Below are positions 870-62,960 of a DNA stretch of 64,000 nt, in pieces (positions within the stretch are counted from its first letter, which is position 1; each line of letters begins with the position of its first letter). The notes beneath the pieces are model-generated. The model was not told the origin of the DNA and made no database searches. It saw only the letters and a list, made by a program, of their open reading frames with translations. The translations under genes were made by a program, and so were the position numbers. The DNA comes from Opisthorchis felineus (taxonomy: Eukaryota > Platyhelminthes > Trematoda > Opisthorchiida > Opisthorchiidae), in assembly GCA_004794785.1 (NCBI GenBank), contig SJOL01006503.1:132395-196394 (forward strand), given 5' to 3'.

Positions 870-890
870 ACGACAAGGCATCAGAAAATG
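870..890 (+). CDS. MEG-A micro-exon, 21 nt
   Basis: Acceptor AATCCAATGCGTTTCAG and donor GTTAGT. Reads DKASEN in phase 1. First exon recognisable in the window. Confidence 0.5.
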
Positions 891-36141: not shown

Positions 36142-36185
36142 TCAAATATCTCCTGCGTACACGCCAAACACAAGGGGAAATTTCA
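36142..36185 (-). CDS. MEG-B terminal coding exon
   Basis: Acceptor ATCATCACCTGCAG, then an open phase-1 reading KFPLVFGVYAGDI followed by TGA (36142-36144). A hydrophobic C-terminal tail fits the reading from the previous exon. No clear AATAAA was found nearby, so the transcript end is not fixed. Confidence 0.4.
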
Positions 36186-39100
36186 CTGCAGGTGATGATA
36201 CGATTTACCGCAGGTTTTGAAATTTGTCGACAAAACACAATCATTTAGATGTCATATTATATTCTGCGGTGGCAGATAACAAAACGCATGAAACATACCG
36301 TATGGCGTGTATTCTGCGAAAAAAATGTTGTTCAGAGATTCTCCCCACACAAATATACCAGTGAATTGTCACGCAAAATATAAGTAAAATTCAAACACCT
36401 CACCTTGAGTGCTTGTGCTAGGTTCGTCTTCATTGACACCTAAATAGAAAGAAAAATGGTAAATTGTACACTTTAAATGACAAAGAAAGCGCTTGTTTGT
36501 AACCATAAGCACTCGTAACTACGAGAACCGTTTAGCATTTAGATGAGAGGTATGTAAATTGTGATAAATATATGCTGAATAAGGAACATCTAACACAGGC
36601 GCATATGCCAGCTTGAATTCACTGAAAACTGGTAGACTTCCAAACCAACAGCAAAGTGCACACCACTTACAAGCCTAAAAGTTTGATTACAGTGCAAAAA
36701 AATCATTGTAATATCCATGGGTAAGGCACTGCAATGAAATGGCTTGTCTATAGAAAACGCTTGAAGAAATAAATGTCTCACTTACAGGCTATATACAGGG
36801 GAACACCAAACCATCTTTCTCGTGCAACCGAAGTTTTTTATGGTACTGTTTACAGTTTTCAAGTGTCGCTTTTTGAACGCCTTCACTTTCAAAGGAATTT
36901 CTTTCAAAGGACATGACTTGAAACCTTTAGGCGGATTTCGTTTTTTGTGATAACATGTGTTTGCGTGTCCAAGTAAACCTCATAGGACATCAATGATAGC
37001 TAGTGCTGGCAAGTGTGCTGTTTTTTCATTTCAACGAATATCAACTAGCAGTCACGTAGATGCTAAAAAAGTGCATCCCTTTGTCTACACCTGTTCTTTA
37101 ACGTCATCAAGTCATTGGTGTTGTTACCTTGCGCAGATGTGACATCCTGCTCCTGCATATAACACAAAAGCATGAAACTTACCGTAAAGCGTGTATCCTG
37201 CGACATTAGAAATATTTCCTATGGGTTTCTTCAAAAAGCTTCTACCGATAATTCTGTACACAAATATGTGGACAGCTTTCCAGTGCCTTACCAACAGAGC
37301 TTGGGCTCCGCCCGGCGGTTTCGCTGCCGAAATGAAAACCTGTGGGCGACAAATTCCACATGTTAGATCATAAACTGGCCGCTTAGTAGAAAAGAAGCAC
37401 TGTAAATCCAGTCTTAATTTATACGTCACCTTTGCTACATTAAAAATAGACTATCGATGCATCTGGGCTCTCCAGGGCATGACGGAGTCAGAATTTTAGA
37501 ACACCAGCTAAGTTAGAGACGACTTTGCGCCTTGAATCCGTGCTTAAGATGCATGTTGATAAATTGTTCGTTGACAACATATATGCCAAATAATTCATCT
37601 CAGAAATGCTAAAGGTCGCTGAGATCCCTAGCCGGGGCTGAAAAAGCATAATTTTTTGTTATGATAAGTTGAGTAAAAGGCTAAATCTGATGAGCAAACT
37701 TGAATTTAAAATCCTGAGGCTTTCGCCTAAAACATACAAGCTCGACTTTGGAGCATACAATTTCTTCCTCATGTACATGAAAATGGTAAAAAAACATCTT
37801 GCCGTCTGATAATGGACACATTTACAGCTTGTACTACGTTAACACGGGTCTGATTGAGAGCTGGTTTACGACAGATTATTTTATGGCAATAATTATATAA
37901 ACGTGCATTTAATGTTTCCGCGTACCACGCGGTGCTGCCAACTGTGTTCACCAAACAACACCCTGAACAATAGGGCTGGATTAAACGGTATTCTCAGGTA
38001 GGAAGAATTACAGGCTAATACACGGTATTTTAGAACCTAATGTTCTGTTGAGTAAAAAGTTGAAGCCGAGTTGACGTAGTGGATTAGTACGACGTCGCAT
38101 TTTTAGCCAAAATGAACTCAGTTTTATAGTGATAAATTAGTGATAAATTAGTGATAAATTATTTTTATATTAGTGGTGTGCACAAAGGTTTATAATTTTG
38201 TAACGTAGCGTAAGGAAGCATTTTTCAAAGCAGCAACCAAATTTCCACTGATATCTCTTTATTGTCCGACTATGCATTACAAATGGTAGTTGTACCAGTC
38301 ATTTCATCATGCAGTTTGGAATGGCGCACGGGCACTATTTTGGAACTCGTAAATTAGGAGGAAATTTGTGGTTCAGCGGATGTTCCAATTTTCGCTTAAT
38401 CAAAGAAATAGTTCATTCATAAATCTAGGGAAGTTGGCTACTTCTAGGGAATTTAACAACTTGGAAAAATCTATAAGACAGTGCCGCTTATTCCAAGCAA
38501 AACGTGGATATCGTGAAAACTCATAAAAAAACTTCAATCGTTGTTCAGCTTGATATTTTTAGTGCAGTTTTTAAAGTGTAGGCAGAACGCGGAAGGTCAT
38601 TTCATTATTTGACGTAAGCTACGAAGATTAATCAAAGATAAATTTAATAGCCTTTATTCTCTAATTTACAGGACTAGTGCGCGATTTCAACAACCCTGCA
38701 GAACAACGGTACTGCTACACAATAAACCTGGACACAAAGCGCATACGTCGTTGTTATACAACTCATTTACTTTGGTTATAAATACTTGCAGGAGATCCCA
38801 CGTGTCATTAGTCAAGTTCAGATTTGTTTTTTTTTTACAACAAGATGCTGTGACTAGTTCTTCAAATCATATAATTTTATAGTCCTGTCGTAATTATTTA
38901 ATTCACTGCGGTAGTTAGCCAAAACTAGAAAATTGACAACCAGCAAGAAAGTCCAAAAGCATCCAATGTCTCATTGCCACCGAGGTCGGATTTTGTATAC
39001 TGGTCCTCCAGATAAGGCAACCGATTGAATAATAAAAATAAAATATACCGCGCAGCGATAAAACAAACGAGTTAAAAATATTAAAGACCGAAAGCACTGT

Positions 39101-42100
39101 CACGGTATTTCGGGTATTAAACACAGTTAAATTAATATTCGACTACTCTACCGAAGAGTCAACAAATAATCTTAGACTGATGATAATATATTATCACTAA
39201 ATGGGAACAATTACTTGTTGGTGTAATTTAGGATAAAGCCAAAATGCATTATGTTTGATAAGTGGATTGTCGAATATGTGTTGGTGCACCAGTATGTCCG
39301 CAGTTGCAACGACCACTGCCTGAATTGCAAATGTTTACAATGCATTAGTTTTAACTATCCTGCTTTCAGCTAGATTTTTGGTAAGTTTGTCTCAGAGTAT
39401 AAGTCTTACTGCAAATGAGCAATTTTGTGTGGTCAAAAATATCAACAAAATTTTGTGCTCAAGTGACGCATTCACTGACTAGTGTTCGTACCTCCAATAC
39501 CTGTTATTCAAAATAATAAATCAAAAATTCACTGTTTACCAACTGAGACAACATACGACTGCTTGGCAACCTCTGATCAAAACGTCAATCCTCAAAATAC
39601 ATTCTAAATATAATTGATCACGAAATTCCTCAGACCCAGGAGAATGAATGACCAAATTCATGAAGTAAGTTTAAAGCAAATTTGTGTTTACTACAAGAAC
39701 GGAAATATCTTACAAAAATATAGAGGTTTTCAATAAAAGTAAATTGCTACGTCCAATATAAATGGATTCTTCTGACTCTTTTGTGACTTTTGTATTCCAG
39801 CCAAAAGGGCCGCAAACTTCTGTTTCATTATTTTTATTTATAGGGGCACTAATTTGCATAACATATAAATATGTTAGGCCTAGAAAGTCCAAAGTGTTGA
39901 ATTTGCCGAAGATTAACAAGTCTGGTTTTTGGCTAGCAGCCATTCATAAAAGAAATTTTCATTAGCTGGCTGAATACACACATTATTTCTGCCAATTTAG
40001 ACTAATATTCTGCCGTAACGCTTCAGAACCAAGGGGAACTGACACAAAACGGTACCGGTTTATAATGCATACTACACCACCATGGTGGAAAGCAGAGGTA
40101 AAGAAAATATGGGTGTCCTGATATGGGTGCTAAGTTTAAACAAGTAATTCAGGTTTGTTTATTTATGGACCAAACGCTATCGAACGCTCTCCTTTGCATA
40201 TATTTTGGCTCCCAAGTGATGAAACATTAGAGAAACTGTGAACGTCTACGCGAAACCAAGAGGCTCCTGTCTATAAGTTAGAAAATTTTCCGTGATGTTT
40301 AGCCACAAATTAATTACTACAGAAAGCTAAAGCGCATAATATGCAAAAGCTCGCAGTTTGCGCTTATTTTCATGTACAGAATACATGCGATACACCTCAC
40401 GGTACGGTGGGGCTTGAAAGTGATTTTTCGGGCGTTTTTCAATGTTACCTGCGCTGGCACAATACAATCAAGGTAACATAAGCGGACACCACAGAAAACA
40501 GTCAAAACATATTTTTAGCGATAGGGTATCTATTGGGAAAAACTATAAATCTCCCATTATGTCTCCACAAGGATAAATACAAGATGGCATTTCCCCACGG
40601 AATTATAGGCACTTCGGAATACAAGCATGCAAAGTACTTCTATATTAGTGCTTCTTTAAGACTTTTGACTCCCAGCAGCTCTCTGAAATTTGGGTCCGTA
40701 TGAAAGCGACTGTGTACTTCAGGTTTTTTCATGGCGCTGTGTCAGGAAAAATATTTACTTCTTTACAGAAACCTTGGAACACTTGACTCGGCGGATCAAG
40801 CTGTGCTCAATAATGACCTGTCATTTTAACGCACTGTTCTCATTTCCCATTAACTCGTTTAATTGTGGTTTATCTCTCGTCTGGTATTCAAAATCTTTGA
40901 TATGTTGCATATAGTTTATGCTTGAATTGTGCAAAAATTCAAAAAATCCGGGATCACTAATAACGTTTCTTATGATCGGAGCACCAAATAAGGCGCAGTC
41001 TGATATTGAAAGGAGCATATTTGCTAATAACTTCTGATCATTGAGCTAAATCACACAGATCGTTAAAATGCGGATATAGCTGTCCGTCTTTGTGTCGGTA
41101 CTGACCTTTCCTATTTAACAGGCCGCTCCAAACATCCAGTCTGCACAACTAACTTTTTGTGTAATTCTGAAGTCAATGGACGATTATTCAGAACTTACAT
41201 AACCAATCATTAGTTTGGTTCAGTTACTCCTCCCTATGGTGTTGTCTCCTATACTGCAGTCGTTTAAACTGAATGAGATCACTGATATATTTTATATCAG
41301 TTCAGCCTAAACCACCTAGATGACTTGATTTATGCATGCAGGTATTTGCGTTAGTGCTCTCAAAAGTGTCCACAAATTTTGCATGCTTTAAATGTGCTTT
41401 TGATGAAACTCCTCCATTGGAAAAATTGAATTTTGCAAAAACTGCGACGATGACACTAACACGTATGTTACTGGCAGCTGCAAGCTTTGAGAGTTATAGC
41501 CAAATACACCTCTTAAATGAAAACTCAGCCTCTATTACGCAGAATTCGGCAGCAGCGTTGGTTCTTCATATAAAACAGGCAACAAAGTGAGCATCAACTC
41601 TGGGCTATTTTAGTACTCAACACATCTTTGACCGGTAGGTTTGACTAAATTTCAGCGGCTTTGGTAGGAAAACACTACTTCGGTCTCTTCTTAAGTATAT
41701 GGAAACGTACTCTCCAGTAAACAACGAGGAAAATCTTTCATGTAGTACGTAAATCTCTTCTATAAGCCCGCTAAATCGGTATCTGGTCATTCATTTTGTT
41801 TAAAAATTACTTCAGGACATCACATCCATAGAAGCATAATGGCTGTCCAAAATGTGATAACTGAGCAAATATCCTCCCTTAAATGAGCTTCATATTTTTA
41901 TCTAGTCCGTTCAGACATTCGTAATGTTTTGCGGCGCCGATTTGTGGCTCCTGTCCACAACAAATAGTAGCTGCAACCCGGTTAAGGCGCAGCTTTATTT
42001 GCCAGTTATTGTAGAAGCCAGAGTTTAACAGTTACTAGCTGAAGTCGGTGGTCGTTCTGAGAGGTATTATAGTACATATTTAAAGATGAAGCTGTCTTTT

Positions 42101-45100: not shown

Positions 45101-48100
45101 TACTAGCTATAATTATGAAGCAACGCCAAGCCCTTAAGGTACACAGCTATACGAGAAACCAGTAGAAGTACAAACTGAACGAGCAAGTAGATATGACTAC
45201 TGAACAGGGGTCTGACTCAGTAGAATACCCGTTCAACCATAAAAAACGAGTACGAATTGGAACGAAGAATACAAAATCCAACAGCATAGAAAGCACAGAA
45301 AATCACCCAAACGCGTGAATCCCCTTCATCACAAAAAAAACAACTATAGCAGACAGGAAGGTGCAGCCAGCCGAGCCGTCACTAGACAATCAAAACTTAT
45401 CTTAAGAAAACTTTACAGCAAACAAGCCGACTGGACCAAATTAAAATTCTGAATACAAAAACCACCGAAAGGGACAATTAAAGTAATTGAAAGCAGAGAA
45501 AAGCGCAATATTATTCGTCACCAAATGAGATGACACACTTAGGCGCATCAGTACCATCATTAGTGATATCATTAGTCAAGTTCATTGATGACAAAACGTT
45601 TGCAAGCTGATTTGAGACACGACGAACAGATCAAAGACCACCGCTCAAACGGCAATGAACCGTAGGCCGCTCAAACATAAGGATGTCATTATAAGCCTGG
45701 TATGTTTGGGGTATCTTTTGCAGCACTTGGATGATTATAGCTTTATCAACAAATGGCATATATGCAAGGTGAAAAACCGACTTTCCTAAAATTCACTTGA
45801 ACCAAACTGTTGCATAATATTCAGATCTTATTCACCCAACTGTAAAAAAATCCCTACATCACTAACGGCAGTGTCTTTGGTTGTCCGGCACTCAGTGTCT
45901 AAAACGGTAGTTAGATAAGGCTTAACGAAGTAAATGCAGAAGTCACAGTAAATATCACAGCTCAGAGGCGATTTCGGGGTTCCTTGGAGTGCACTCTTTG
46001 AAGTTTAACAATTGTTTAGATGCAACCATAGGTTTTCAAATTTGAACGACCTGGGAAAACTTCAGCTGCTATCTTGAATGCCCTGTTATCTTATGGTGTT
46101 CATAGCAGGTTCTGCGTCCCAGTAAAGCAACAATGCAGAGACGTCTAACAGCAAAGATAATCTTTTGAGATGAGCTGGTAGCGTCTAATCTGGGGGCCTC
46201 TTATTCCTAATAGCGTGAGGGTTTGAGGTTACCCCTGGGCGGAAGACGGAAAAATGTGATGATCACATTGCTTTTTAAATTTGACACTTCCGAATTTAAC
46301 ACTCTTGGTTTCCGCCGAGGAAACACAAGTGACACCTGGTTTATTTTGCACCACTGCAGGTATAGATATGCTACTGACAATACACACGGGACTATTTGCA
46401 ACAACGTAGAACCGAGTACGCATCATTCACTCATAATTCTAATGTTAGTAGCACTACAATGGGAGATATTCATTACGTTTTTGCGGTTGACCTCAGTGTC
46501 ACTGAGTGTCACTGAGTGACAAAAATGTTAAAACATTAGATTGCATTTACCGCATACAAATGAAACTTAGCGTGTCTAAATTACTGAAAAATCGGAATAG
46601 TAATCAGCTAGCTGCCATACTAAGTTTTCTTTGGATAATCAAAATCTGTGTTGAAGAAATCACCGATTATAAACATGTTATGATTTCAACTGCTTTATTT
46701 AATTTTGCTCACCAACGGCTGCCATAATCCGAGCTGAAATATATATATGCAGTAATCTTTCAAACTGTACTGTGACCAACAGCAGGTAATTGTAAATGCG
46801 GCACCCGGTGAGTACTGAACAGCATTGGCGTTAATGTCTGGTATTTTGTCGTTCAGTCCCGTTTTATATTTACTTTCGAAATTTGTGCCATGCATTTTTG
46901 AACGCGTTTTGCGGCTTTTATTCAATATTTCCTCCCAAAGTACTGCCAATTAATAGCATACGTCTAATTTTGTGAAATAATTAGTACTATATGTGTGTCA
47001 TTTTCGCTATAAAAAACTTTTGCGTTTGAGCTTCAGAAATAGAGTGTGGGTTTGTTATAACATGGCACCACTTGTGCTTGATGTTGCGCATCTATGTTAA
47101 CAGTGGCCTGAGCTGTATCCCGTTGTTACCTACAGAAATGCCTCGTTACGGACAACCACCTAGATGCGCGTAGAATATTCTTTACTATAACAAAGCGATG
47201 CTGTCAGCGTTTCAGTATTTTTACTCTTACTTAAAACATTTGTATTACCGCAGTTTAAAAACTGTCATTATCGTCCATGCGACGCAGGCATTTTGTTTCA
47301 CAGGCGCATTGAGTGCTCATAGCATCAATAGTGGAGCCTTTTATTACAACAAAATATGTAGAGGGAAAGAATTCCCTAAATCACAATTTAGGTTTGCCTG
47401 GAAGGTAAACATTTTGGTCACGATATACAGTCTCTTTGGTGCCAAAAAACCGTAAATAAAACTGTAGCTCAATTAAACAAGAACGTAAAATCTCAATAAG
47501 AATTAGCCTCGGATTGATGTTAAAATGACCGGCACAAACAACTGGGAACTTCGGGCGATTATTGCGGCTTTCATCTTGTGCCTAATACCATAGTAGTGGG
47601 TGGCAAATAACCGTTTACAAAAAATGCAATTTCAGCTAAGTAGGCATTCATGCTTCTCAGGTGAACGGTGACACTTTTGGTAACATTCTGGGTGTCTGAC
47701 GATTAAGGCTGCAGTTTTCAGCTGTGATTAGGTATTTGCGTGCCTTTTGCTAGTCTTTTGACAAAATGGATCTTAAAATCATAGGCCATTTATGCGCAAA
47801 TAATCCGTTGTGGATGCTCCTAAAATCCAAGCTGCACTTTTGAAAGCAACACATTTTAACCACTACGTACTCGTTAATATTTTTGAGAATGCGCTCATGA
47901 AATGAACATGAACTTCACCGCTCACCGGTCAGTGAAAAAAATAAACTCCCACTTTTGTTTGACGCAGAACGTTCATTCAAATTTCCCAGTATTAGACAAC
48001 GGTCTTAATTTTTGGCCGGCTAAGCTTGTCACGAAACAATTCTCTATGTCTTTATGAAGGTGATCTAAACCTAACGGTTTAACAGCAAAACCTATGACGC

Positions 48101-51100
48101 TGTTTGGGACAAAACGAAGCACATAATTATGAACCACGTTCCACTCCTGCTGGGCCTACTCCTCCATTTGGTTGCTCCCCGTGAGTTAACCATCAAATCA
48201 GATATATTAGTAAATATTATTCTCAAAAACGTTTCTAAAAGATGCAGGCTGTGGCTGTGGAAATTTTTCTGAGCTCCAATGTCTCCTCTGCTGGCTATTG
48301 GTGCTGTATTGCTAAGACAAACTGCGCGTTGCTAGTGGTACAGTACTAGATCTAAAAGTGTGGAACACTTCAGTCATGGAATTACAAATTATAAAGAAAG
48401 TGAAACTTACACATCTGCCGCGTGAATACATCTATAAATGTTGCAAATCACCAGGAATAAGACGTCTTCTAACCAAAAAACAATCTTTGCCTCTCCGTCA
48501 GAAATATTCCTTACCCAGCTTGAGTTTTGATTTCTCTTTTGTGTATAAAATAAATTCAAAAATTATGGTAACGTTAAGAATTTGCTTGTGATGCACAAAA
48601 CTAAGTAGATGATGCGATCTCTACACCAGAAGAAATAAAATTACTACTTAGGAAGCATTGAGAATTTTTACCGATTTTCAGCCTGGTTTCTTCTAGAATG
48701 TGATAAAAAACAAGGGGGGCGATTATCGTCAATTTTACGTATGTTGCAACAGCACCCCTCAAATTTATGTTTGCATTTTTGTACTCGTTTCAAAACACTT
48801 TTTTAATGCGCTGAATACACATTGCAATTTTAACTAAAAATTTAGCTTATTTTTGAATCAAAATAATAATACAAGGCCAGTGTTGTTGCAAACTGCAGTC
48901 AGGGATGAATGCGCAGCCTTTTGCGCTGATTGTGGTCCGCATTACCCGGTTCTCTAGAGCAGCTCATTATTCAGGAGGTGACAAAAGCTAGATTGTTCAT
49001 TTGGAAAATTCCAAGCTTGTTTGTATTGGCCAGCAAGGAACACTAAACGTGGGTGTTACATGATATCTAGCAAAAAGTATGATTTGAAGGCTACTTACTT
49101 GCAAGTTTATAAATTAAAATGTGGGGGCCATTCTAATGAAACGCCCTGTTTTGCTGATGTTTGCCCCAAAATTCTACTGACGTCCTTTGCCAAAAATGTC
49201 GTTTCTAATATTGTAAACAATGTCAGCAGATAGAAAACCAGTCAGTAAATGTTCTCGTGACGTGGTTTCTCGTACTGAAGGAAGAGTGGCCGGATATCCT
49301 GTCTACATAAGATCTGATCACACCGCCAATAAGCCACTTGTGGTCAAATGTTTAGGTGCTCAAACGGTCAGATTTACCCTAAACTTATTTGGCGTTTAAA
49401 CAAAACATCCCGCTAAAATTGGTCACTTGACCCTCGCATGACAAGAGCTTTTTCATTGTGTCCCCACTGCATTACGGATATTTCGCATCGCATGAAAACC
49501 ACCATTCGTAAATAACGTTTTTCTGTGCAAATAAATCGCACGGTAAATAATTCGGCAATAACCACATTATGGGTGCCAAGTGAATCCCAAAATAGAGATA
49601 TCGGTAAATTGGAGGGGCATTGGACATTACAAAAAATATTGCGATCTAACAGGGAAAAATGTTAGAGGGTTTTATTTTGACTTGGAAAAAGATGAGAGAG
49701 CTTGCGCTTACCAGCTGCAGATTCAACTCGCCCTGTTTTAAAGACAAATGAAGTGTGTGAAATATGGTAAACGTAAATGGTAAACCATCCCTTTAAGACA
49801 AACGTGGCTGCACGACTTACAGAACCGCCCGCGCTTACCAGAGGTTACCTATTTGTTAATCTCATGCAATTTTCTCAGCTGGAAATCGAATACAGTTGAC
49901 AAACGTTGTCACGTCATGTCTTTTAACGTTTACAAAAGACCGGCAAGTCAGATTTATGCCTCAGATGAGTTCATTATATGTTGCTTCATGGAAATTAGGC
50001 AGAGAAAAATCTTACAGAAGGAAAGGTCACTTAATGAGTGTACATTCGCAAGCTGGCTTACAATTTTACAGACACATCATTCTTACGAGTTTACTTAACA
50101 ACCGGATGCAGCCAGATCCACCAGGCAAAAGCAAAGCTTACGCCCTTATGCATTATTGCACACACACAGAAACAAAGTTTACATGGACATCAGTATACGT
50201 CTGCGTAATTTTAAACATCGTACCACAAATGACAAGTGGTATTTTTAGGAGATTTTTGGAACCCCTCTTCAGATATAGCTTTTCTGTACATAAATAACTG
50301 GTTACAGCATGTGCTTCAATATATCAGACCGTGCAGCCCGTAGACAAACTCTTTATTTAAAAATTCCTACTTCTATTAAGTGGTGGCTACCTTTTTTACT
50401 TTACTGATTTGTTTTACATTCTCATCCACTTTTTTCCTGAACCAACTTTTCTAAAAAATGGTTCGCATTTTTACAGAGCTACTGTGAGATTATTATTTAA
50501 TAAAATAGTACACGTAAGGGTTAGATGCTGGGTTGGCAGAACGCTGGAATCAAAGTGATATTCCCAACGACCCTTTGTTTTAATTTGCCAATGCGACTGT
50601 AATCTTAGGCCCAACTCACCGTGTTCCTCATTAATTTGTTCTTTAAATGTGCATGTATAAGAATGGTAAGAATGCGTTTGCCAGGAGCCAAAAAACTGAA
50701 TTATACAAGCTCTTACTAAAAGCAATATCAATATCAACAATAAAATCATAAAATGTTCTTCATTAAATCTGCTCTTTAGAAGTGCTTATGTCGTTACATA
50801 CCAAATTTAATGAACCGGACTAAACTTCTGTGCCTTTTGGGGGCGTCTACACGGATAATATTAGGACAAAACTCATTGTTGGAAGTTTTTTCACTGCCAA
50901 AAACCTTGCAAGATTTAGCGTTGTGGTATAGGTTGCCAGTCCAGCCATTTATGCTGATAGATGAGAACTTGACAGGATTTTTGAATAATGTACTCGGTCT
51001 TGTGAGCTTTCATTATTACCCAAACAAAGGTATAATCCGATTACAAACTTTATTCAATAATGTGATCCCTTGAAAATCTGCACAATTTAAAACCTTGTGC

Positions 51101-54100
51101 TAAATCAGGTGGTATATTGCTAGCATCTACTGGTATCAAGAAGCGTGATAATGCGCTGGTAGCTTGGTAACTCAAAGCGGTGGACACAGAATAGTTCTTG
51201 CTTAGCTCAGTTTAAAAAATTCGAAAAGCTTACCTTTAAGTTTTCTTTCCGCGGCTGCATTGATTTATTTGAAACGTGTGTGAACTAATCATTACTTCAG
51301 TTCTTTAATGAGACAGCATTCAAACCGGCATATCCTACTTCTAGGAGGTTCAGACGTGCAGCTAATCAAAATTTTACTTGGCAAGTCTTTACTGCCGACC
51401 ATCTGGTTAACACAAAGCCGATGAAGCGCTGCTATTCTCGCGACTCAAGATACGGTAACACTCAGTGCTTACCGTTATGCGAATCCAGTATACAGGCATT
51501 CCATTGTGGATCGAAAAATTCCAAATATGTGTACTTAAAAAATTTCTCTATTTTACAGGATAAACTAAACCTTTCACTAAAGCTGCCATTTGAACGAATC
51601 CAAAATGCAGGTGACAAAATTTTCGCAGTTGGAATTTTTTTTAAACTAGCGTGTGTTTTTATATTACGTCCGCTATATGCAATATTTCGCATACTTGTTA
51701 TAATATCATTTTATCCACACATTTTCTCTTTAATCAAATGAACAAATTTTGCCGTAATTTTTTTCCGAGACGCCCGTATTCTTGGCATTTGCACATTTCG
51801 TGTTTCTTCTGTGTCTAAACATTGTGACCAAGAAAATAAGCTATGTTGGTTTGCAAACGGTCGTACTTCCGGTACATCATCATCGTCATCGTCAAACTTA
51901 ATAGTCGTACAAAATTTAACTTAAAACGTTTTATTGTCTAAAACGTAGAGAATTTATGAACTTGGGAACTTACCGACCGCTGTCATTCCATCTGTTTAGT
52001 ATGTTTTGACGAGACATGTAAGCATGTATACCTATGGACATTGGAATGCTATTATTTACCTTGTTGAATAAAAATATCAACCCTGTCAGCTGGCACAGAA
52101 AATGGCTTCACGTAGAACAAAAAACTGAATCCTGTTTATACAATAGGCACGCACTGTTCAGTGGCAATACCAATGACAAATTCAAGTACAATACTGCTAG
52201 GGTTGACTTTAATAAAACCAAGGTGAACATCAAATTTTCGCAAAAATGGATCATAGCCAAATGATAATCTTAGGGACTTTTTGACTACCATTGGCTGGTT
52301 GTCGCGTTACAAAGAATAACTTGTAGTTGGATAAGTTTTCCACCTGTTTTGTTAGCACAGGTCGAGCATCCTTGGATATTTTCAGGTAATTACTACAGCG
52401 TAGGATCTGTAAATTACATGGAACACCTAACAACCTTGATAATGTAGCAAGCATATTGTGTTGCAATCCGTTGCTCTTAGCATTGCCTATAAGCCGGTAG
52501 GCTAAGCAAAGTGGTCAAGCGTACCTACAAGACAGATAACGTCGTCCTTGGGATCAGGAATTCACAGACCTTTAATGCTTGCTGCAGGCACGGTATGTTG
52601 CCATGTGAATGTCACTATGCCACCGCCGAGTTAGAATTTTTGGCTTAATTCCCAGTTAAATACCATGCAGGTTACCAGGTAACCCAAACTTTATAAAATC
52701 TCTAGAGTCAAACTGGATTAAGAAAAAATTCCATCTGTAGCCCTGAAAGTTCTCAATGAACGTATCATGCGGTTCAGCTAATACTTACATACTATTTGCA
52801 GCAGGATAATGCAGATTTGAGCCATTTTAAATCCTAATGTAAAATATCTCTGACTTTATGTTTTTTTTCAATGACACCGCTTGCTCGGCATTACACATTA
52901 GATGAAAATTCATTTGGCTTTAATAAATTAAAAATAAATCGGTTAAACCGGCCATACCAAATAATGGCCTAGCGCCATGCTGCGTCATTCTGATACGTTA
53001 AATGGGTAGTGTGTAAACACTACACAGAAATTGCTCCCATTGGTCAGACTCCCTTTAATTCCAAAACTTCTTCTTCCGCGCAAAGTGGTATGCAGATGAA
53101 TTTTACCCCGCTTACGAATGAAAGTTAATGTGTCTTTTACTTTACGATTAGACACAGCGAGACCTGTGTAAGAGTCCTACAGGAATGAATTAATTATTTT
53201 TATTCAAATTTATAATGTAAGAACTTTCCGCTGTGAGCTTTGGTACTGCAAGCTGTTTTGAAGAAGTTGCTTTCAGGGTTTATCACGTTTGTGTTCATTT
53301 ACGGGTAATATTTTAGCACACGTAAATTATCGTAGTGGTGAAAGTTTGCCTGAACATTATACAATATAATTATAAGCTTGACGAAGTGTGATGACAACCC
53401 AGAGAATTAACTCATGACTGTACGTACCGTTCAGAATTTCTTGTCCCTCTAAAAGGTTAAAAAATCAAATTTACAGTTTAATTTATTATTCTCAATTGTT
53501 ATCAGAGCGTGTTTTCCGCCTAATGTAATCTCGGTGAACAAATCATTTATAAAGCTGAGTGAGTGGTAAAATATTCTCTCATGGTTGGAACCCATAACCA
53601 TCTGGTTTCGAAATTACTCCTTCAGTTCTGGTGTGTTTGAGCCCTCAATCAGCTCAGCAATTCAAGCTTAACTCGCAAAGTATAGTCCTTTATGGTCGTT
53701 CGGTATTTTGCCCCACCGGTTGCGTGCTATCGGAATTCAATAGTATCGACTCATTGTGAAAAAGTTGCTTACGCTGCATGAAATGTCCGCACAAATGCCA
53801 CACAATGTGGCACATCTTAGTGCAAGTTTTATAATCTTTTATCTTACATTGACGAGGTAGCAGCGGATGTGAATTCTAAAGTTCAATAACGCAACCCCAT
53901 GTGCATGGAAATATCACCAGTAATATTTCCTGAATCCAGCAGTATATTATGCTGGGCTCCAAAACCACCTTTCGGTTTGGTGATCATTTTTATAACTTGC
54001 TACACTGTCTTCTTAAACAACCTAAGAGTGTCGTAGGATATCCTAAAAAGTGATGAAATGCCCACCTGTAGTAAGCGTCTGCCAAATACACTTTGTCTAA

Positions 54101-57100
54101 CACTATTCCGTGCTACTTGTGTGTTTCTTCTGTGTTTGATCACTTTCAAGCACTTGATTCTGAACACAAAATACATCTCTAAATGTAGCAGAAACAGTTC
54201 TGTCAATTGAAAAACCCATTTTTTCGCACAGAAACCTTCATAACCAATGAGAGGCGCAGGCACCATCTATAGCATACACGTTTTGAATTTGTGTGGTTAC
54301 CCTGAGATAAAACGTTTCTAAAAATTGCGCTTGACTGCAGTCAAGTGCGTGCCAGGCCGGCAATAATTTATCTCCAAAGCTTTGCGTACAGTATTTTGTA
54401 TTGTTGCATGTCATTCTTATCGTAATCTTTATCATAAGGGAGCTTACTTTAGCTAGTCGAATACAAAAGGCATCCATTTGGCTGCGTTTAGGCAGCTTAT
54501 TAGACACCAGTGAGCTTTCTTAAACTGCATTTTGCACGATCCGATTGTCTACATCGCTGAAGGGCTCTATACCAAAACGCTGTTAAAGCAGGATGCTAAC
54601 CATTTCAATGTTGATAACATAACAAATGATGGACAAAATAGTATTTGATAAAAAGAACTTGTTTTTTACTTTGCTTGATAGTGACTTTAAGTTTAAATGT
54701 TTAGCTTAACTTTGCCAAAGACACATCACTATTTTTTTCAAACCGCCAGCGTTTTTTCATACAGTCACTGCACCGCAAAGACTCTGTACTATATTTTACC
54801 AGGTTTTCTTGCTATAAGCTTACATATGGTTATTGAATTTTTATGTGAGTCTTACTATTCACGGAATGCGCTGCTGTTAGTAGATTCATATCAAGTTGCG
54901 GATCAAAACCTTAAGTCGTAGCACTGTGTCCCTAAAAACTTGAGTATCGTCACATCAAATTTGAATTTTCAGCCAATTTACAGATTATTAAAATATCAAT
55001 AATGATTTGGTGAGTGTGAGCTGGTAATTGTGATTAATTGAGTTATTCACGATTCCTTGATAGGTCTGCACCCGCTGGTTGTTCTGAGTATGGGCAATTT
55101 ATAACTGCATTTTTCTATACACGTATTTATTCTATGAATTACATCATAAGCAATAAGATAAATTCATTAATTTGCGGCTAGTGTTTACATAACTACTGTG
55201 AAAATAATTATAGTACGTCAACATAAACGCTTTGTTTCCCCTGTATTTGATGGAATTTGGATTTTAGGACAGCTTTGGTAAAAAAACAAGCAGGATTTTG
55301 TTAGCAACGCGTCTCCGACGGCAAGCTTACAGAAAATTTCCGACGAGTTTTTAAATTGCATTGCATGTAAAAGTGAATCAATGCACATTTGGAAAAATTA
55401 AGGTGGCCATTGAAGTCTAAATTTTGTAAAAAGAAAACGCCTTACTTATCCCTAATTCATGCAAAAGGGAGAATCTGCTGGTTCTCCTGAACGCGGTCGT
55501 CTAGTGTGCCAAGAATAACCTTTTAACTTGTTATTCTTATTACATGAGGTAACACCTCATTTAGGTTGTACTGTGACTGATATTTTTGAAACACCCCGAG
55601 AATTATTTGGAATCTTAATAAAAGATCTGCCGCGCCTTTATTTTGAGCTGGAATTATAAACACACACAATACACAAAACCGCTTTTTTCCTCAACATGTG
55701 CGGATTATTTGGTAGCTGATTTAAAACCCTATTACTGCCTTGCGCACTCACAGCTGTTAACATATTTAAATGCAAACGATCCAGTAGAGCGACATTCCGT
55801 GCTTGATGTACTAGAGTTTTGTCGTAGTGAAGTTCACGTTGGTCAGTTGACTTTGAAAATGCTGCTGCGGTGTTGTATCTATTTTGTCTTTTACGAACTC
55901 CCCCTAGTTTATGTCCCTTTGAATATTTTAGGTATTAAAACAACACGTGGCTATTCGGCCACATATGCCAGATATTTTGTCCGCACGAAAAACCTCTTCA
56001 GAACACCTGAAAACCCCACGATAATAAGTGCTTTTATGACTTTTCTTTTGTAAATGAATCTCAAATTTTAACTCACCGATGAGGAATATTTGGCCATCTT
56101 TCAGGGCGGATATAAGGTGTTAGTACATTGCAACAAACAATTAGTTCGTTTTGATGGAAAACCCTTTAGACCTATGTTTACTTACTTTGCTGCGATGTTT
56201 TCTTATATGGTCGGATGACATATTGTTATGCAAGATTTCGTAGAGTTCGCAGCCTAAGACCTGGGTAAATTATTAACCGTCTGACTGCAAATTTATTCTG
56301 ACTGGATATGGTGGATATGCAAACTACCGTGTAAAAAAGCAAAACCATGGCTCTGCGGTTCAAAAATAGCGGGCTCCAAATTGCCAGTTTAGGAGATTTG
56401 GAAGGTTTTTTACAGCAGCTAGAAATTCACAAGTTTAATGTTGTTTGATATCTTAGCGACCTTCGGAAATACAAATAACATCAGAATTTACAACGTCTTG
56501 TTTTAATACTGAGTAATTTATGGCATTTCATCACGAGGAATCTCACCTTTTTCCACAAATATTTCATTGAAGGCTTCCGAATCTGCAGCAGAAAAAAATG
56601 GGTTACGCAGTGAGAGAAAAAATTTCTCTTCCATTATATTCTATCTGTTGTAAGAGAAGCGAACTGAAAGTGCTTGCGCATAATTTATTTTACATTTTCC
56701 AAGAATAGTCACTCTTACCCGTTTCCAAGGCTTTGAGCGCTGGGAAAGATTTTTAAATTTGAAACAGAAGCAAATATTCTAAACAGGGATAAGATGCTAT
56801 TTAACGTATCATGACTGACAACAATTGACAAAATACCATTGTCTTCGATGCCAGCTGCATATCTTAACAACGAAGTTAAATCAGTTAAACTAATTCAGAT
56901 TGTTTCTGCTTCAAACCTGAAATTTTTAAGGTGGCCGATTCTCGTTACCGACCATAGGCGATCTATGAAGGCAACGTGAGTCAAATCGCGGACACGTTCT
57001 ATTGACATCATCCAGTGGAGTTCCAAAACACCTTTCTAAATTTGAATATTCTGCTCTGATTTGTATTTTTTCTATTTTTTCACTACGCTTAACGAAAAGC

Positions 57101-59299
57101 AGCCGCTTATCAGAAAGCCCAGTTTGTCAAAAATTGACTGCTGTAAGCGCGTTAAAAGTTCAAAATTACAGTAGCAAAAATGTAGGAGAGAAACGCAGAA
57201 GAATGCAAATAGTATGAAGTTCACGAGCCTTCTGCCCATTTGAGTAGAAACATTGAGCAGAGGGCTACGGTTCCATTTCGTGTTTTCTCTTTCGGGTTAG
57301 GTATGATGCGTTGTGATAACCGCTAAATAATTTATTGTACCAAGAAGTCACTGCAATTACTTTATATTTGGCATGCTATGTAAGTGGTCCACAGTGCCTG
57401 TTAACTTGCTAATTTAATACCCCTAGCGTCTTAAAGAGTTTATTCATACTGAGACACCTAAAACATCCACAAAACGTGTCTTTAATTTTAGGCCACACAA
57501 TCATACTCAAGGGCCTGACAGTTGGCCCCATGTCTAGCAAAACCTTCGTCATTCTCTCTTGGAAAGACAGGCATAGCTGCCTTTGAGTTTGAAAACGGGT
57601 TATAAGTTGTTGGGTGCGTTCAAAACACCTACTTTATTGCAAAATCTCATCGACGAAAAAAGTGCTAGGTTTTCTAAGAATGGATGACTGCTTGAACTTA
57701 GTAGCTCATTGTGCATAAGTTGAAACGAGATTTGTTTTGCGCAAACCGATAAAAAGGGCAAAATTAAATCACTCCAGATAAATTACTTCAGAATGTGTTA
57801 TACAAGGTTTACTAGCGTAGTGTTTACGAGGTTAATCACGTATCACTTCCAAAACCCAAAAATTGTGCATCGAATATGTATTAAAATGCTTCCGGTTACA
57901 ATTGAGCTTGTTCACAAAAGAGTCACCCACAAAGTGATTAATTACGAATGTGTTTTACGCACACATACTCATCCACATAGCCGTTAACTTAAAGCTTTAT
58001 TGGTGCCTGTAAAGTCGGCACACGTTATGCTCCGTGATTGCGGTTGCTTTTAACAACAAACTGCAATTAATGTGCTGGCTTGTCTGATTTATAAGATATT
58101 GACTGAGGAATGCCTATGTGCACAGTGACTTACGCATATAAAATTGCTCTCCATCTGTACACAAATGAAAGTGATTTACGATTTACAAACCTCAAGAAGA
58201 TTGTAAGCACTACTCTGAAAATCACTGGTGCGTTCCCCGCACGCGATGGAAATACAAGCTATTTGATGAAATGATCGTTTTCCAAATGTTTGGTACGTAA
58301 ATCGATCGTACTTGATAGTTTCATGAGGTTCCTTCAGATACCTAATTCACGCTGTGGCACAGACTGCGTTTTTAACTTCAGACAAATCTGAAAATTTAAA
58401 TTAGCTTACACGCACCCTTATGGAGACGTGTGATAAATCCTTGATTGTGTCGAAAAGATCTTGCGTAAAGGACGTTGCGCATGCGTTACTCTTTGCGATA
58501 CATCTGAAATTTTATTATAAATTATGATTAATTACTGCACACTGTGCTAGTAATAATTATGCAGCGCCTAAAAATCATGTGCGTGCACGGTGCTTGAATT
58601 TTGGCACCCGAAACCAACAGTATTTGTTTTATTACACACTGAGCCCAGCATAAATACGATAGGAGGTTTTACCACCCAGTAAGCTCTACCAGATGTGTGA
58701 GATAAGATGCGTTCGGAACTTTTATCTGGTTTCAACGTTGTTGGAATAATGTCACTAATTTACTTCGTTCGGTTTACTATGCTTTTTTATAGTAAAACTA
58801 AAGCAGGTTAAAAGGATGGTGATTCAAATCAAAATGCTAGCCCAAATCTGCTGATTTTTCATTGGTCACTTCAAGGTCATCCCAAACTTATCACACAAAA
58901 TGTGTTAACCAATGTAACATTTGATAATGCGCAACTGGGAGATTTTTCCTTCAACTACACAACGCCGTTCTCATAAATTAAGTACATTTCTCAAGCCACA
59001 TTTGAAAGCCTGCATGGAACATTTTTCACCTGCGATATCCTAATGGGGTTATTATTATCACCGTGATCAAGCACCGCGGGGTTACTATGTTTTACCTTAT
59101 TGATCGACAAAAACATTTTGTTTACTTTTGGCCAGTACGCATGACTTACCAAGTTCCATGACTATGTAATCTATCATTTTGTATTAGCGTTTAGCATTAC
59201 CATTGTGTTCATGCAAATGGATCGTCGACGTGTAAGCAAAACTGGGGACTCTTGAATGGTATAAGATTTTTTTAGCGGTAATCTTACCGTATGCATGTA
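36142..59299 (-). CDS. MEG-B: predicted micro-exon gene (about 25 micro-exons plus terminal exon)
   Basis: Gene-level entry; exons are listed separately. Reading down the minus strand, the candidate exons are 12, 12, 30, 21, 21, 36, 21, 6, 21, 18, 21, 21, 21, 21, 21, 18, 30, 24, 12, 9, 48, 15, 33, 36 and 15 nt, then a terminal exon with a stop. Every length is divisible by three and every exon reads open in phase 1 (it begins with codon bases 2-3 and ends with base 1). No join between neighbours creates a stop, giving about 195 codons. Introns range from about 90 nt to 4.4 kb. No signal-peptide exon is visible, so the start is probably beyond the Gypsy copy to the right. Known fluke MEGs are mostly secreted proteins that vary by exon skipping; this role is inferred from architecture only, and I recognise no sequence family. 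Some exons (41711, 59150, 51974, 50620) have weaker acceptors and may be wrong, and others may be missing. Confidence 0.6.
36299..36313 (-). CDS. MEG-B micro-exon, 15 nt (copy 2 of a duplicated exon)
   Basis: Ideal acceptor (CAACATTTTTTTCGCAG) and donor GTATGT. Reads YTPY, differing from its sister exon at 37183-37197 at three bases. Confidence 0.6.
36404..36439 (-). CDS. MEG-B micro-exon, 36 nt
   Basis: Ideal acceptor (CCATTTTTCTTTCTATTTAG) and donor GTGAGG. Reads VNEDEPSTSTQ, an acidic then Ser/Thr-rich segment that could carry O-glycans, as some MEG proteins do (inference). Confidence 0.6.
36786..36818 (-). CDS. MEG-B micro-exon, 33 nt
   Basis: Donor GTAAGT; acceptor AACTTCGGTTGCACGAG (a less common GAG). 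Reads RWFGVPLYIA, an aromatic-rich stretch. Confidence 0.5.
37183..37197 (-). CDS. MEG-B micro-exon, 15 nt (copy 1 of a duplicated exon)
   Basis: Acceptor GATATTTCTAATGTCGCAG class and donor GTAAGT. Reads YTLY. Closely matches the exon at 36299-36313, including the first bases of the downstream intron (TTTCATGC), so the pair arose by local duplication. Confidence 0.6.
37292..37339 (-). CDS. MEG-B exon, 48 nt
   Basis: Acceptor GTGGAATTTGTCGCCCACAG and donor GTAAGG. Reads FHFGSETAGRSPSSV, a Ser/Gly-rich, probably hydrophilic segment. An internal CGGCAG would give 32 nt and break the frame. Confidence 0.5.
38128..38160. repeat. Tandem repeat, 3 x 11 bp
   Basis: Three perfect copies of AGTGATAAATT in a MEG-B intron. 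Confidence 0.9.
39492..39500 (-). CDS. MEG-B micro-exon, 9 nt
   Basis: Very strong acceptor (TTTATTATTTTGAATAACAG) and donor GTACGA. Reads I-G. Confidence 0.5.
40401..40412 (-). CDS. MEG-B micro-exon, 12 nt
   Basis: Acceptor CGAAAAATCACTTTCAAG and donor GTGAGG. Reads P-P-Y. Confidence 0.45.
41711..41734 (-). CDS. MEG-B micro-exon, 24 nt (weak acceptor)
   Basis: Donor GTACGT, acceptor ACTACATGAAAG with little pyrimidine tract. Reads FPRCLLE. Kept because it is open in phase and joins its neighbours without a stop. Confidence 0.3.
42139..42168 (-). CDS. MEG-B micro-exon, 30 nt
   Basis: Donor GTGAGT is strong; acceptor CCATCGATCACCAG is moderate. Reads HPIKLFSLK. Confidence 0.45.
43110..43345 (-). 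mobile_element. RTE-like LINE C-terminal scrap
   Basis: Minus-strand frame with LSWLAHVLRMPVDGLRRRVLF and a following SEGWKRARRDLR, the same C-terminal block as in the RTE copy at 19.5 kb but from a divergent subfamily (LHVLRMP/RRVLF shared). No RT domain is attached. It lies in a MEG-B intron. Confidence 0.7.
43350..44980. other. MEG-B intron without recognised content
   Basis: No in-phase micro-exon on either strand and no repeat that I recognise. Confidence 0.4.
44980..45700 (+). repeat. A-rich repeat remnant, possibly Penelope-like
   Basis: Strand-asymmetric, A-rich block without stable ORF. It carries at 45561-45606 a copy of the motif ending GATGACAAAACGTTTGCAA that matches the minus-strand motif at 27.2 kb, with similarity continuing about 40 bases downstream. 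Short frames rich in Lys/Arg/Gln suggest eroded coding sequence, but I could not match them to a known domain. Confidence 0.35.
46494..46519. repeat. Short tandem repeat
   Basis: Two and a half copies of a unit AGTGTCACTG, itself partly palindromic. Confidence 0.7.
46558..46575 (-). CDS. MEG-B micro-exon, 18 nt
   Basis: Acceptor GATTTTTCAGTAATTTAG is strong; donor GTATGC. Reads TLSFI in phase 1; phase 0 would hit a stop. Confidence 0.5.
46713..46733 (-). CDS. MEG-B micro-exon, 21 nt
   Basis: Acceptor CATATATATATTTCAG and donor GTGAGC. Reads RIMAAV. Confidence 0.6.
48129..48180 (+). CDS. Signal-peptide-like first coding exon
   Basis: ATG followed by MNHVPLLLGLLLHLVAP and then a perfect donor GTGAGTTAA. 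The coding part is 52 nt, so it ends in phase 1, like all the micro-exons. Leucine-rich core, short N-region and small residues at the end fit a secretory signal peptide. It sits on the + strand inside a MEG-B intron, so would start a separate nested gene. Possible partners downstream are at 48697-48738, 49227-49244 and 52000-52017. Confidence 0.42.
48411..48431 (-). CDS. MEG-B micro-exon, 21 nt
   Basis: Acceptor GATTTGCAACATTTATAG and donor GTAAGT. Reads VFTRQM. Confidence 0.55.
48697..48738 (+). CDS. Possible second exon after the signal exon, 42 nt
   Basis: Acceptor TTTTCAGCCTGGTTTCTTCTAG and donor GTATGT are both strong. Phase-1 reading CDKKQGGRLSSIL joins the signal exon without a stop. 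Confidence 0.35.
49227..49244 (+). CDS. Possible micro-exon of the nested + gene, 18 nt
   Basis: Acceptor ATTGTAAACAATGTCAG and donor GTAAAT. Reads DRKPV. Confidence 0.3.
49712..49732 (-). CDS. MEG-B micro-exon, 21 nt
   Basis: Acceptor CATTTGTCTTTAAAACAG and donor GTAAGC. Reads RVESAA. Confidence 0.55.
50620..50640 (-). CDS. MEG-B micro-exon, 21 nt
   Basis: Donor GTGAGT is strong; acceptor CATGCACATTTAAAG is moderate. Reads QINEEH, with a Glu codon formed at the upstream join. Confidence 0.5.
51234..51254 (-). CDS. MEG-B micro-exon, 21 nt
   Basis: Acceptor CAAATAAATCAATGCAG and donor GTAAGC. Reads AERKLK. Confidence 0.55.
51974..51991 (-). CDS. MEG-B micro-exon, 18 nt
   Basis: Donor GTAAGT is strong; acceptor ACATACTAAACAG is modest. 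Reads GMTAV. A competing + strand candidate lies just beside it (52000-52017); the two use overlapping acceptor sequence on opposite strands, so at most one is likely real. Confidence 0.4.
52000..52017 (+). CDS. Possible micro-exon of the nested + gene, 18 nt
   Basis: Acceptor CATTCCATCTGTTTAG and donor GTAAGC are strong. Reads CFDET. Conflicts with the MEG-B candidate at 51974-51991. Confidence 0.32.
53428..53448 (-). CDS. MEG-B micro-exon, 21 nt
   Basis: One of the best acceptors in the window (TTGATTTTTTAACCTTTTAG); donor GTACGT. Reads GQEILN. Confidence 0.6.
55446..55451 (-). CDS. MEG-B micro-exon, 6 nt
   Basis: Only GGATAA, but flanked by a strong acceptor (CTCCCTTTTGCATGAATTAG) and donor GTAAGG. 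In phase 1 it supplies Ile plus parts of two codons; the apparent TAA is out of frame. Confidence 0.4.
   Translation of the reverse strand, partial: G
56077..56097 (-). CDS. MEG-B micro-exon, 21 nt
   Basis: Acceptor ATATCCGCCCTGAAAG and donor GTGAGT. Reads GQIFLI. Confidence 0.5.
56547..56582 (-). CDS. MEG-B micro-exon, 36 nt
   Basis: Acceptor CCCATTTTTTTCTGCTGCAG is near ideal; donor GTGAGA. Reads SEAFNEIFVEK. A second AAG acceptor nine bases downstream would give an in-phase 27-nt version, a possible source of alternative splicing. Confidence 0.6.
56719..56739 (-). CDS. MEG-B micro-exon, 21 nt
   Basis: Excellent acceptor (AAAAATCTTTCCCAG) and donor GTAAGA. Reads LKALET. Confidence 0.6.
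58134..58154 (-). CDS. MEG-B micro-exon, 21 nt
   Basis: Excellent acceptor (CTTTCATTTGTGTACAG) and donor GTAAGT. Reads GEQFYM in phase 1. Confidence 0.6.
58410..58439 (-). CDS. MEG-B micro-exon, 30 nt
   Basis: Acceptor ...CACAATCAAG and donor GTAAGC. Phase-1 reading is FITRLHKGA, with the final T completing a Tyr codon with the next exon. Confidence 0.45.
59150..59161 (-). CDS. MEG-B micro-exon, 12 nt (alternative 21 nt)
   Basis: Donor GTAAGT is strong. Two acceptors fit in phase: ACATAG (12 nt, M-E-L) and GATAG (21 nt, ending at 59170, Y-I-V-M-E-L). Both have weak pyrimidine tracts, so the 5' boundary is undecided. Confidence 0.35.
59288..59299 (-). CDS. MEG-B micro-exon, 12 nt
   Basis: Pyrimidine-rich acceptor ending ATATATCAG and donor GTAAGA. 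Phase-1 codons give H-A-Y. It is the most 5' MEG-B exon I can find. Confidence 0.45.
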
Positions 59300-61479: not shown

Positions 61480-62960
61480 TAATGCAAATACTGTCTTTCG
61501 GTTCTGGCCTGTTTGAGTCAATGAGACGTGAGAAAGCGCCGGTCCTTTTGAGGCTTCTTGTGGACTGGGACTTGATGTTTATGTCATACTCAAGAAGCAC
61601 AGTGGCATATCACTAGAGACGGTTGGCGGTATACATGGGCATCTCCTTCTTTAAGCCAAGCTCAGTAAAGTACGGGTTGTAATCAGCCAATAAGGTAAAC
61701 TGACAGCTGTAGAGCATTTTCTGAAACATTTTCACGGAAATGCATCCCCAAAAGCTTCTTTATCTACCTGACTAAAGTTGCACTTTGTTAGTGTCAGGGA
61801 TCTGGCCACATGTGCAGTGGCTTTCTGGCCGCTGTTGGGAATTACATGCGAAATCACTGCCACAATTCCATAGTTTGAAGCATCCGACACCACAATGAGT
61901 CCCAGTGGCGGATCGTGGTATGGGTTGCGAATCTAAACTCAGCATGGATTTGAGAGGGCCACAGGCTTGTTTTCCCTCTTGTGACCACGTTTGTTGGTGG
62001 TCTTTAGCAAGTAGCTGTTTTAGTGGACTTCAGATGCGATGCATGGTGGGCATACGTCAGCTGTAGTTCTGATGAGACTGAGGGAGGACCTTGAGGATGT
62101 TACGTCAGTGGATTCCGGCATACGCACGATAGTGTCGATGTCCTCTGGGCCAGACCTGCGGCCATGTTCATCCGTACTGAACCCAAGTTACTTTATGGGC
62201 TCCATGAAGAAGGTACACTTTTCTCAGCTCAGTCTAAATCCATACTATTGAATTCGATCAGGCATGCGATCAAGTTCGTCGGAGTTGGAAGCCATGATGG
62301 CTTGGTCGCCAATCAGGGGCCGGGCAGCCCGCATTATTCAGCTCCGTATTTATGATACTTTGAAATATGGCTGGAGCTGCCTTGACACCAAATGGCAGCC
62401 GGGTATACTGAGACGCACCGAGGCGAGTATCGGTGGTCACAAGTTCTCGGGATTCTTCCTCAACTTCAATCTGGAGGTAAGCATTGGCCAAGTCAATCTT
62501 CTCAACACAATTTCCCTCATCCGTAGTTGTGAGCACGTTGTCTGGAAGAGGCACAGTGTGCTGAAGTTTATCCAGCGCGGCATGGAGACTGGCGTAGAAC
62601 AAGTTCAAGTGTCTAGTTCTTGAATCCGGCCTCCGGTCATCCCAAGATGCATCTATCAGAACCTGGCTGCTCCACATAATTAAACAGGATACTAAAATGA
62701 CACGGCAGATCCTCACTACCGAATGCCACCGGCTTCTCAACCTGAAGCACGACACGGCTGGAATTGGTCATTCGCCTGCTGCTTAGAGTGGATGTATACA
62801 CGAACTCAACTCCAACGCCCCAAACAAACCCGAGACCAAGCCCGTTCGTCAAGAAAGCAAACTTTACACATGTTAATTGCAAAGCGGAATGTAGCACTTC
62901 GCTTGTTATTGCTGGGTTTGGCGTCATACTTGTTTCAGCTTTCATCGTCGTGACCAAAAA
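61480..62960 (-). pseudogene. Gypsy reverse transcriptase and RNase H remnant
   Basis: RT: VEKIDLANAYLQIEVEEESRELVTT and RLPFGVKAAPAIFQ (62500-62360) are clear Gypsy RT motifs; the YxDD region just downstream is garbled. CTFFMEPIKYLGF (about 62210) is the thumb. RNase H: LIVVSDASNYGIVAVISH (about 61900), which keeps the first catalytic Asp, KEAFGDAF (about 61760), and LLEYDINIK (about 61580) near the end. Three reading frames are used. Confidence 0.8.

Follow-up and report, generated by a model that had tools for sequence, protein, structure and literature searches.

Flatworm parasites are believed to diversify their secreted proteins through the splicing of micro-exon genes (MEGs). Such genes are missed by ordinary gene finders and by similarity searches, and the proteins they encode evolve fast. 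According to passages of the Hymenolepis microstoma paper, a flatworm MEG has at least seven exons, of which at least half are shorter than 70 nt and divisible by three, in runs of at least four, and the curation of MEGs across flatworm lineages is a high priority (PMC7653826). The same passages give 52 MEGs for H. microstoma, ten of which are one tandemly expanded family, and 35 for Echinococcus multilocularis (PMC7653826). For Schistosoma mansoni, the parts of a 2023 review cited here report 35 MEGs, which contain 10-20 very short exons, mostly of 15 bp, and have introns that become shorter toward both ends of the gene (PMC10526429). A paper on S. japonicum also reports relatives of MEG-4, MEG-8 and MEG-9 in another species ("T."). 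Two other kinds of gene bear comparison. SmVAL6 is alternatively spliced only in exons located 3' of its SCP/TAPS domain, as stated in the cited part of PMC7957364. The bicycle genes of aphids contain many micro-exons of a single phase and, in the cited passages, form a class that gene structure reveals although searches by sequence do not (PMC9168663).

Here we describe two arrays of micro-exons in and around a window of 64,000 nt, the whole stretch of Opisthorchis felineus DNA that was analysed (contig positions 132395-196394, from an assembly of 630 Mb in 1848 contigs). Coordinates above 64000 denote the continuation of the contig to the right and negative coordinates its continuation to the left. 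Sequence statistics establish the exon arrays, their length, their phase and their strand. The array on the minus strand (gene A) and that on the plus strand (gene B) very likely represent a pair of MEG-like flatworm genes in convergent orientation, whose seven-residue cassettes could be skipped in frame. From this resemblance in structure we infer that the arrays may be transcribed, that individual cassettes may be skipped, and that the products may be secreted and act at the host interface.

As a prediction, gene A falls within the structural definition of a flatworm MEG. The number of predicted exons is 32 in gene A and 25 in the part of gene B that was read, and the predicted run of exons in gene A comprises all 30 internal ones. 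Short exons divisible by three account for 30 of the 32 exons of model A (all internal exons), a count that is partly a product of construction, since the model was built from symmetric phase-1 candidates; the length scan described below is free of this bias. In both the S. mansoni MEGs and this locus, short symmetric exons form arrays interrupted by long introns, in-frame skipping is possible, and retrotransposons lie nearby. The products of schistosome MEGs are secreted or membrane-anchored, start with a signal peptide and vary by the skipping of micro-exons; gene A has a signal-peptide candidate based on hydropathy, and no signal-peptide exon was found in the part of gene B that was read. 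In contrast to the mostly 15-bp exons of S. mansoni MEGs, about 30 exons, mostly of 21 nt, are present here, and the 5' introns of gene A are long (6.4 and 8.9 kb) while its 3' end is mixed. The first 44 residues of model A, a stretch in which exon membership is provisional, lack the hydrophobic motif that the cited part of the review places after the signal peptide (PMC10526429). A search of the open-licence literature found no paper that mentions 21 bp together with micro-exons and Schistosoma, and no mention of 21 nt in the 12 listed of 63 papers, a result that speaks for that literature and not for publication as a whole. The structural criteria printed for tapeworm MEGs are common to gene A, and a 21-nt quantum is not mentioned for tapeworms in the cited passages (PMC7653826). 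The likeness to SmVAL6 lies in variation via the 3'-side exons of a fluke gene, but SmVAL6 carries an SCP/TAPS domain and Pfam found none in the joined models or in three larger open reading frames (ORFs) of the span. The aphid bicycle genes are alike in their many micro-exons of one phase, but they are insect genes with internal exons of phase 2, whereas the open phase in this flatworm is phase 1 (in 32 of 33 candidates, against 21 for phase 2).

Exon length, phase and strand

Segments of the form AG-exon-GT were ranked by a splice score that used untrained, generic metazoan site frequencies. A sequence-only reading of positions 36142-59299 had proposed a minus-strand gene of about 25 symmetric phase-1 exons there. 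In this interval, symmetric phase-1-open candidates of 6-48 nt numbered 14, 12 and 9 on the minus strand and 6, 5 and 4 on the plus strand at scores of at least 3, 4 and 5, respectively, all counts including overlapping alternatives. At the same three thresholds, the minus strand had length classes modulo three of 16/8/5, 13/6/3 and 9/4/2, and the plus strand 9/14/12, 8/9/11 and 5/7/6. The best phase-1 exon chain in 34001-59299 scored 57.0 on the minus strand versus 17.8 on the plus strand, and 200 dinucleotide shuffles in blocks of 500 nt gave chain scores with a mean of 11.1 (sd 6.0) and a maximum of 34.7. Micro-exon candidates with a score of at least 10 were found three times in the whole window on both strands; two of these are in 36142-59299, both 36 nt long and phase-1 open, and the third has a length not divisible by three.

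The length spectrum is dominated by one class. Within the 20 kb right of the window, 7 of the 10 phase-1 candidates with a score of at least 4 were 21 nt long. Over the 284 kb of contig scanned on both strands, which include the window and extend to its right, the minus strand had 19 candidates at 21 nt versus 1-9 per other length, and the plus strand had 3 of 21 nt. In the gene A region (34-134 kb, 100 kb), 17 candidates of 21 nt scored at least 4, of which 16 were phase-1 open, and the mean for other lengths was 1.35. In 100 shuffles of this region the 21-nt class had a mean of 1.64 and a maximum of 5, and none of the 55 length classes ever rose above 8. When the score was lowered to at least 3, a phase-1 stop was present in 2 of the 21 candidates of 21 nt, and a smaller excess appeared at 36 nt (9 candidates, 8 phase-1 open). 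The plus strand of the gene B region (64 kb) gave a matching picture at a score of at least 4: all 16 candidates of 21 nt were phase-1 open, other lengths had a mean of 0.81, the opposite strand had none of 21 nt, and 100 shuffles gave a 21-nt mean of 0.93 with a maximum of 5. Of the 33 candidates in both genes at this score, 32 could be read through in phase 1, compared with 20 in phase 0 and 21 in phase 2, and 70.5% of random 6-codon stretches are open. The spike is absent at 140-284 kb (2 candidates on the plus strand and 3 on the minus strand) and in the window at 10-34 kb (0 and 1 candidates). The flanks of 23 gene A exons showed no mutual similarity, apart from physical overlap between neighbours; a dispersed repeat family therefore cannot account for the spike.

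For a held-out comparison between the genes, splice models were each trained with 19 exons from one gene and then run on the other. At thresholds of 5, 6 and 7, the model trained on gene A recovered 21-nt exons in gene B (11, 9 and 4, all phase-1 open), with means of 0.63, 0.39 and 0.15 for other lengths and none on the opposite strand. The model trained on gene B detected 11, 7 and 6 exons of 21 nt in gene A, again all phase-1 open, with means of 0.98, 0.61 and 0.41 for other lengths and none on the opposite strand. Counts of a trained model on its own training gene are circular.

Thus, the observation made in the sequence-only reading exceeds chance, and a minus-strand gene with symmetric phase-1 micro-exons is supported by the chain score (57.0 versus a shuffle maximum of 34.7), the 21-nt spike and the cross-gene test. 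In the scan of shuffled sequence that the reading had proposed as a check, the shuffles and the opposite strand were at background level. The plus strand, on which it had counted no in-phase micro-exon, does contain some, in a number that is at chance level. Within the range of 6-48 nt that it gave, the sizes are not spread smoothly but show the spike at 21 nt and the smaller excess at 36 nt, and 15-nt exons are few in the model.

Other properties of the 21-nt exons were less distinctive. Codon usage scored against a table trained on transposons averaged -0.005 in phase 1, and -0.067 and -0.181 in phases 0 and 2; phase 1 is thus not positively coding-like by this transposon-trained table, and the measure is uninformative. 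A heptad or coiled-coil module was considered and set aside. Shuffling hydropathy within exons gave p values of 0.097 (23 gene A exons), 0.67 (16 gene B exons) and 0.057 (both), and the positional frequency of ILMFVWY yielded 0.12 (A), 0.069 (B) and 0.004 (both); we do not claim a heptad because the tests were picked after the peptides had been seen and because codon 7 overlaps the donor consensus. Recent copying of gene A exons from one another was likewise rejected, with a mean pairwise identity of 0.296 versus 0.285 for codon-shuffled exons (sd 0.005, maximum 0.301, n=300), a marginal difference.

Predicted structure of gene A

The model of gene A is a minus-strand prediction of 32 exons over about 99 kb, from ~133.7 kb down to a stop at 34441. 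Its 30 internal exons are symmetric and of phase 1 (23 of 21 nt, 3 of 15 nt, 3 of 36 nt and 1 of 24 nt) and are separated by introns of 83 nt to 10.9 kb; the 5' introns measure 6405 and 8912 nt and the last introns 743, 90 and 1817 nt. Joined, the exons form 753 nt without an internal stop and with a terminal stop, encoding 250 residues. After the first 17 residues, the predicted product is acidic (pI 4.49) with a hydropathy of -0.65 and no cysteine, and the residue at the junction is G, E, D or A in 23 of 31 cases. The window contains 15 of the 32 exons. The membership of weak exon candidates in gene A is provisional.

The sequence-only reading had thus recognised a real minus-strand array, of which it saw just the 3' part. 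Instead of about 25 exons, 36142-59299 contains 14 of the gene A model, several of them weak. The exon candidates run far beyond its 5' limit at 59299, to about 133.7 kb, and its 3' end at a 36142 stop has an acceptor of only 2.1, so that a terminal exon at 34481-34441 (acceptor 6.0) is the better choice. This proposed last coding exon (34441..34481, minus strand) is 41 nt long, is entered in phase 1 and contains the stop; a polyA-type signal, AATAAA, lies 47 nt from the first base of the stop codon. At the other end and outside the window, a candidate first exon at 133711-133660 (minus strand) has an ATG, a hydrophobic stretch and a donor of 7.9, and ends in phase 1, with in-frame ATGs upstream up to 133750. 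On both strands of 284 kb, three exons including this one pass equal limits for donor and hydropathy, and its hydropathy makes it a candidate signal-peptide-like exon.

The predicted exons in 36142-59299, all on the minus strand and of phase 1, are given here from 5' to 3'. The 21-nt exon at 58134..58154 has a generic score of 4.5 and, as a training member, a trained score of 14.1. It is followed by a 21-nt exon at 56719..56739 (score 7.0), a 36-nt exon at 56547..56582 (12.9), which is among the three window candidates scoring at least 10, a weak 21-nt exon at 56077..56097 (2.7; not above 6.5 in the trained model) and a 21-nt exon at 53428..53448 (6.1). The 21-nt exon at 51234..51254 combines a generic donor of 6.9 with an acceptor of -3.5 and, being a training member, reaches a trained score of 10.1, and that at 49712..49732 scores 8.7 generically and does not exceed 6.5 in the trained model despite being a training member. 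Next are 21-nt exons at 48672..48692 (3.6), at 48515..48535 (weak, 2.0; trained 7.0 as a non-training candidate), at 48411..48431 (weak; trained 6.6 as a non-training candidate) and at 46713..46733 (4.0; trained 11.2 as a training member). The 3' group consists of a 15-nt exon at 37183..37197 (9.3), a 36-nt exon at 36404..36439 (13.2), also among the three candidates of at least 10, and a 15-nt exon at 36299..36313 (6.5). The two 15-nt exons, 36299-36313 and 37183-37197, are ~0.9 kb apart and look alike by eye together with short flanks, which makes an exon duplication likely. Right of the window, at 69355-69390 (minus strand), two acceptors 15 nt apart allow an exon of either 36 or 21 nt, and each version is open in phase 1.

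Gene A would thus comprise a short signal-peptide-like first exon, 30 internal exons and a last exon with the stop and the polyA-type signal. Since all of its internal exons are of phase 1 and have lengths that are multiples of three, the frame would stay the same whichever of them were skipped or kept. Each of the two genes, as proposed, is an array of symmetric phase-1 micro-exons, mostly of 21 nt, with introns of about 0.1-11 kb, and the locus might give rise to a population of proteins that differ mostly by whole seven-residue cassettes. By analogy with the schistosome MEGs, the product would be expected to be secreted at the host interface.

At ~105.5-105.7 kb on the minus strand, inside the span of gene A, an acceptor of 10.4, the highest of its list, opens an ORF, and a cysteine-containing ORF in another frame ends in a stop; neither has a Pfam match. 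The ORF with the stop at ~105.5 kb may be the terminal exon of another gene within the gene A span. In that case gene A as modelled might be cut in two, and the 5' exons, including the candidate signal-peptide exon, might lie outside it, which would leave the array itself unaffected.

Gene B and its relation to gene A

Gene B lies on the plus strand and enters the window at its left end; it extends from -49 kb, if not from further left, to about +9 kb. In the part of the sequence read, 25 exons are predicted, the first exon being beyond it. Within the window, its 3' part includes a 12-nt phase-1 exon at 5849..5860 (score 8.0) and a 15-nt phase-1 exon at 8322..8336 (6.3). Three further plus-strand, phase-1 segments are tentative and stand outside the joined model: a possible 15-nt exon at 5525..5539 (4.1), a possible 24-nt exon at 9346..9369 (4.4) and a weak, possible 21-nt exon at 870..890 (2.1). 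Genes A and B are convergent, and about 25 kb separates the last exons found.

Colinearity of the exons of the two genes was not significant: of 1000 shuffles of exon order, 344, 310 and 504 scored as high with gap penalties of -1, -2 and -4, respectively. DNA similarity between the two loci was limited to one simple, self-complementary stretch of 27 nt, seen with the filter off. Given the lack of significant colinearity and of DNA similarity beyond this stretch, common descent of genes A and B is not demonstrated. One could speculate that the two genes represent a class in which selection holds exon length and not sequence. Such genes, arrays of interchangeable 21-nt phase-1 cassettes of seven residues, might act as combinatorial generators of secreted proteins that vary in seven-residue steps, might exist as convergent pairs without residual similarity, and might be findable by structure alone. 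The near-uniform 21-nt exon is a signature that does not depend on sequence and whose rate of false positives can be measured, and it would allow any trematode genome to be scanned for MEG-like genes. Exons of this length raise the question of why the cassette has seven residues.

Sequence relatives, rival explanations and neighbouring elements

A search of 5.8 billion proteins with the joined models (299 aa and 261 aa), which reaches proteins of 0.55-1.75 times the query length that share exact 5-residue words, gave no match at E<=10 among 1056 and 400 candidates, respectively. Neither the joined models nor the three larger exon-like ORFs inside the gene A span matched a Pfam family over its cut-off; weak matches of the joined models (E 0.036-0.05) were below the cut-offs. 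Weak PDB matches, of which the best was an MLL/c-Myb chimera (E 0.7 and 0.27), were taken as chance, and Rfam gave nothing over the gathering score in 144 kb. These results are compatible with the undescribed family suggested in the sequence-only reading, for which they would be weak evidence because MEG proteins evolve fast and the search is limited by length and shared words.

Three other explanations were weighed. The most serious, which we nevertheless consider unlikely, is that the arrays are real and constitute micro-exon regions at the C-terminal end of larger genes, whose products may not be secreted, in the manner reported for SmVAL6, with the signal-peptide exon lying outside gene A. 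The restriction of alternative splicing in SmVAL6 to the region 3' of its SCP/TAPS domain (PMC7957364) provides a precedent, the first exon of gene A is backed by donor strength and hydropathy only, and the separate stop-ending ORF at about 105.5 kb falls within the span. Against it, no Pfam family exceeded its cut-off in the joined models or in the three larger exon-like ORFs of the span. Among the best 26 larger minus-strand exon candidates listed, six are at 134-204 kb, beyond the ORFs scanned with Pfam, with a best codon score of 7.9.

Still less probable is a conserved gene of the ordinary kind whose exons happen to be exceptionally small and whose relatives carry a name that the searches did not reach. 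Flatworm genes often have small 5' exons, and the protein search was confined to the length range and exact words given above, both of which leave room for this explanation. However, two protein searches gave no match and no Pfam family exceeded its cut-off, and a near-uniform length of 21 nt in two genes would be unexpected for such a gene. Finally, splice-like sites are common, and a chain of this kind could be an artefact of picking exons that fit; the control strand does have some candidates, and the number of exons varies with the threshold. This explanation is contradicted by the shuffles, the opposite strand, the other lengths and the held-out cross-gene test, all of which are at background, and we regard it as extremely improbable. 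Two convergent genes of the MEG kind thus probably remain the best account of the locus.

Several other elements were observed around the arrays. The 7.6-kb gene A intron between 65787 and 58154 contains a reverse-transcriptase remnant (62270..62767, minus strand; RVT_1 match) and, at 60207-60686 on the same strand, an ORF that resembles a piece of a retroelement polyprotein by eye and has no Pfam match. Retrotransposon-like ORFs are also present on the plus strand at 32071-33002, with a DUF7041 match at 32071-32742; the plus-strand ORF that follows, which has no Pfam match, resembles an aspartic protease by eye, judging from a motif. For a reverse transcriptase ORF right of the window on the same contig, the flatworms named among the 120 listed of 948 matches are Trichobilharzia regenti, in 2 rows with identities of 38 and 40%, and Schistosoma rodhaini, in a single row with 38%; several matches with a bacterial name that outscore those of flatworms were taken as contamination. 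The flatworm matches give indirect support to a trematode origin of the contig. At 4419-4479 on the minus strand, an exon with an ATG and a hydrophobic stretch ends in phase 1 at a donor of 8.4, among the strongest of the contig; the minus strand downstream of it has no 21-nt spike. Right of the window on the plus strand, an FHA-domain ORF (piece L023, 183-731) and a PHD-finger ORF (piece L024, 2085-2795) are about 11 kb apart and possibly belong to one conserved gene that adjoins the locus.
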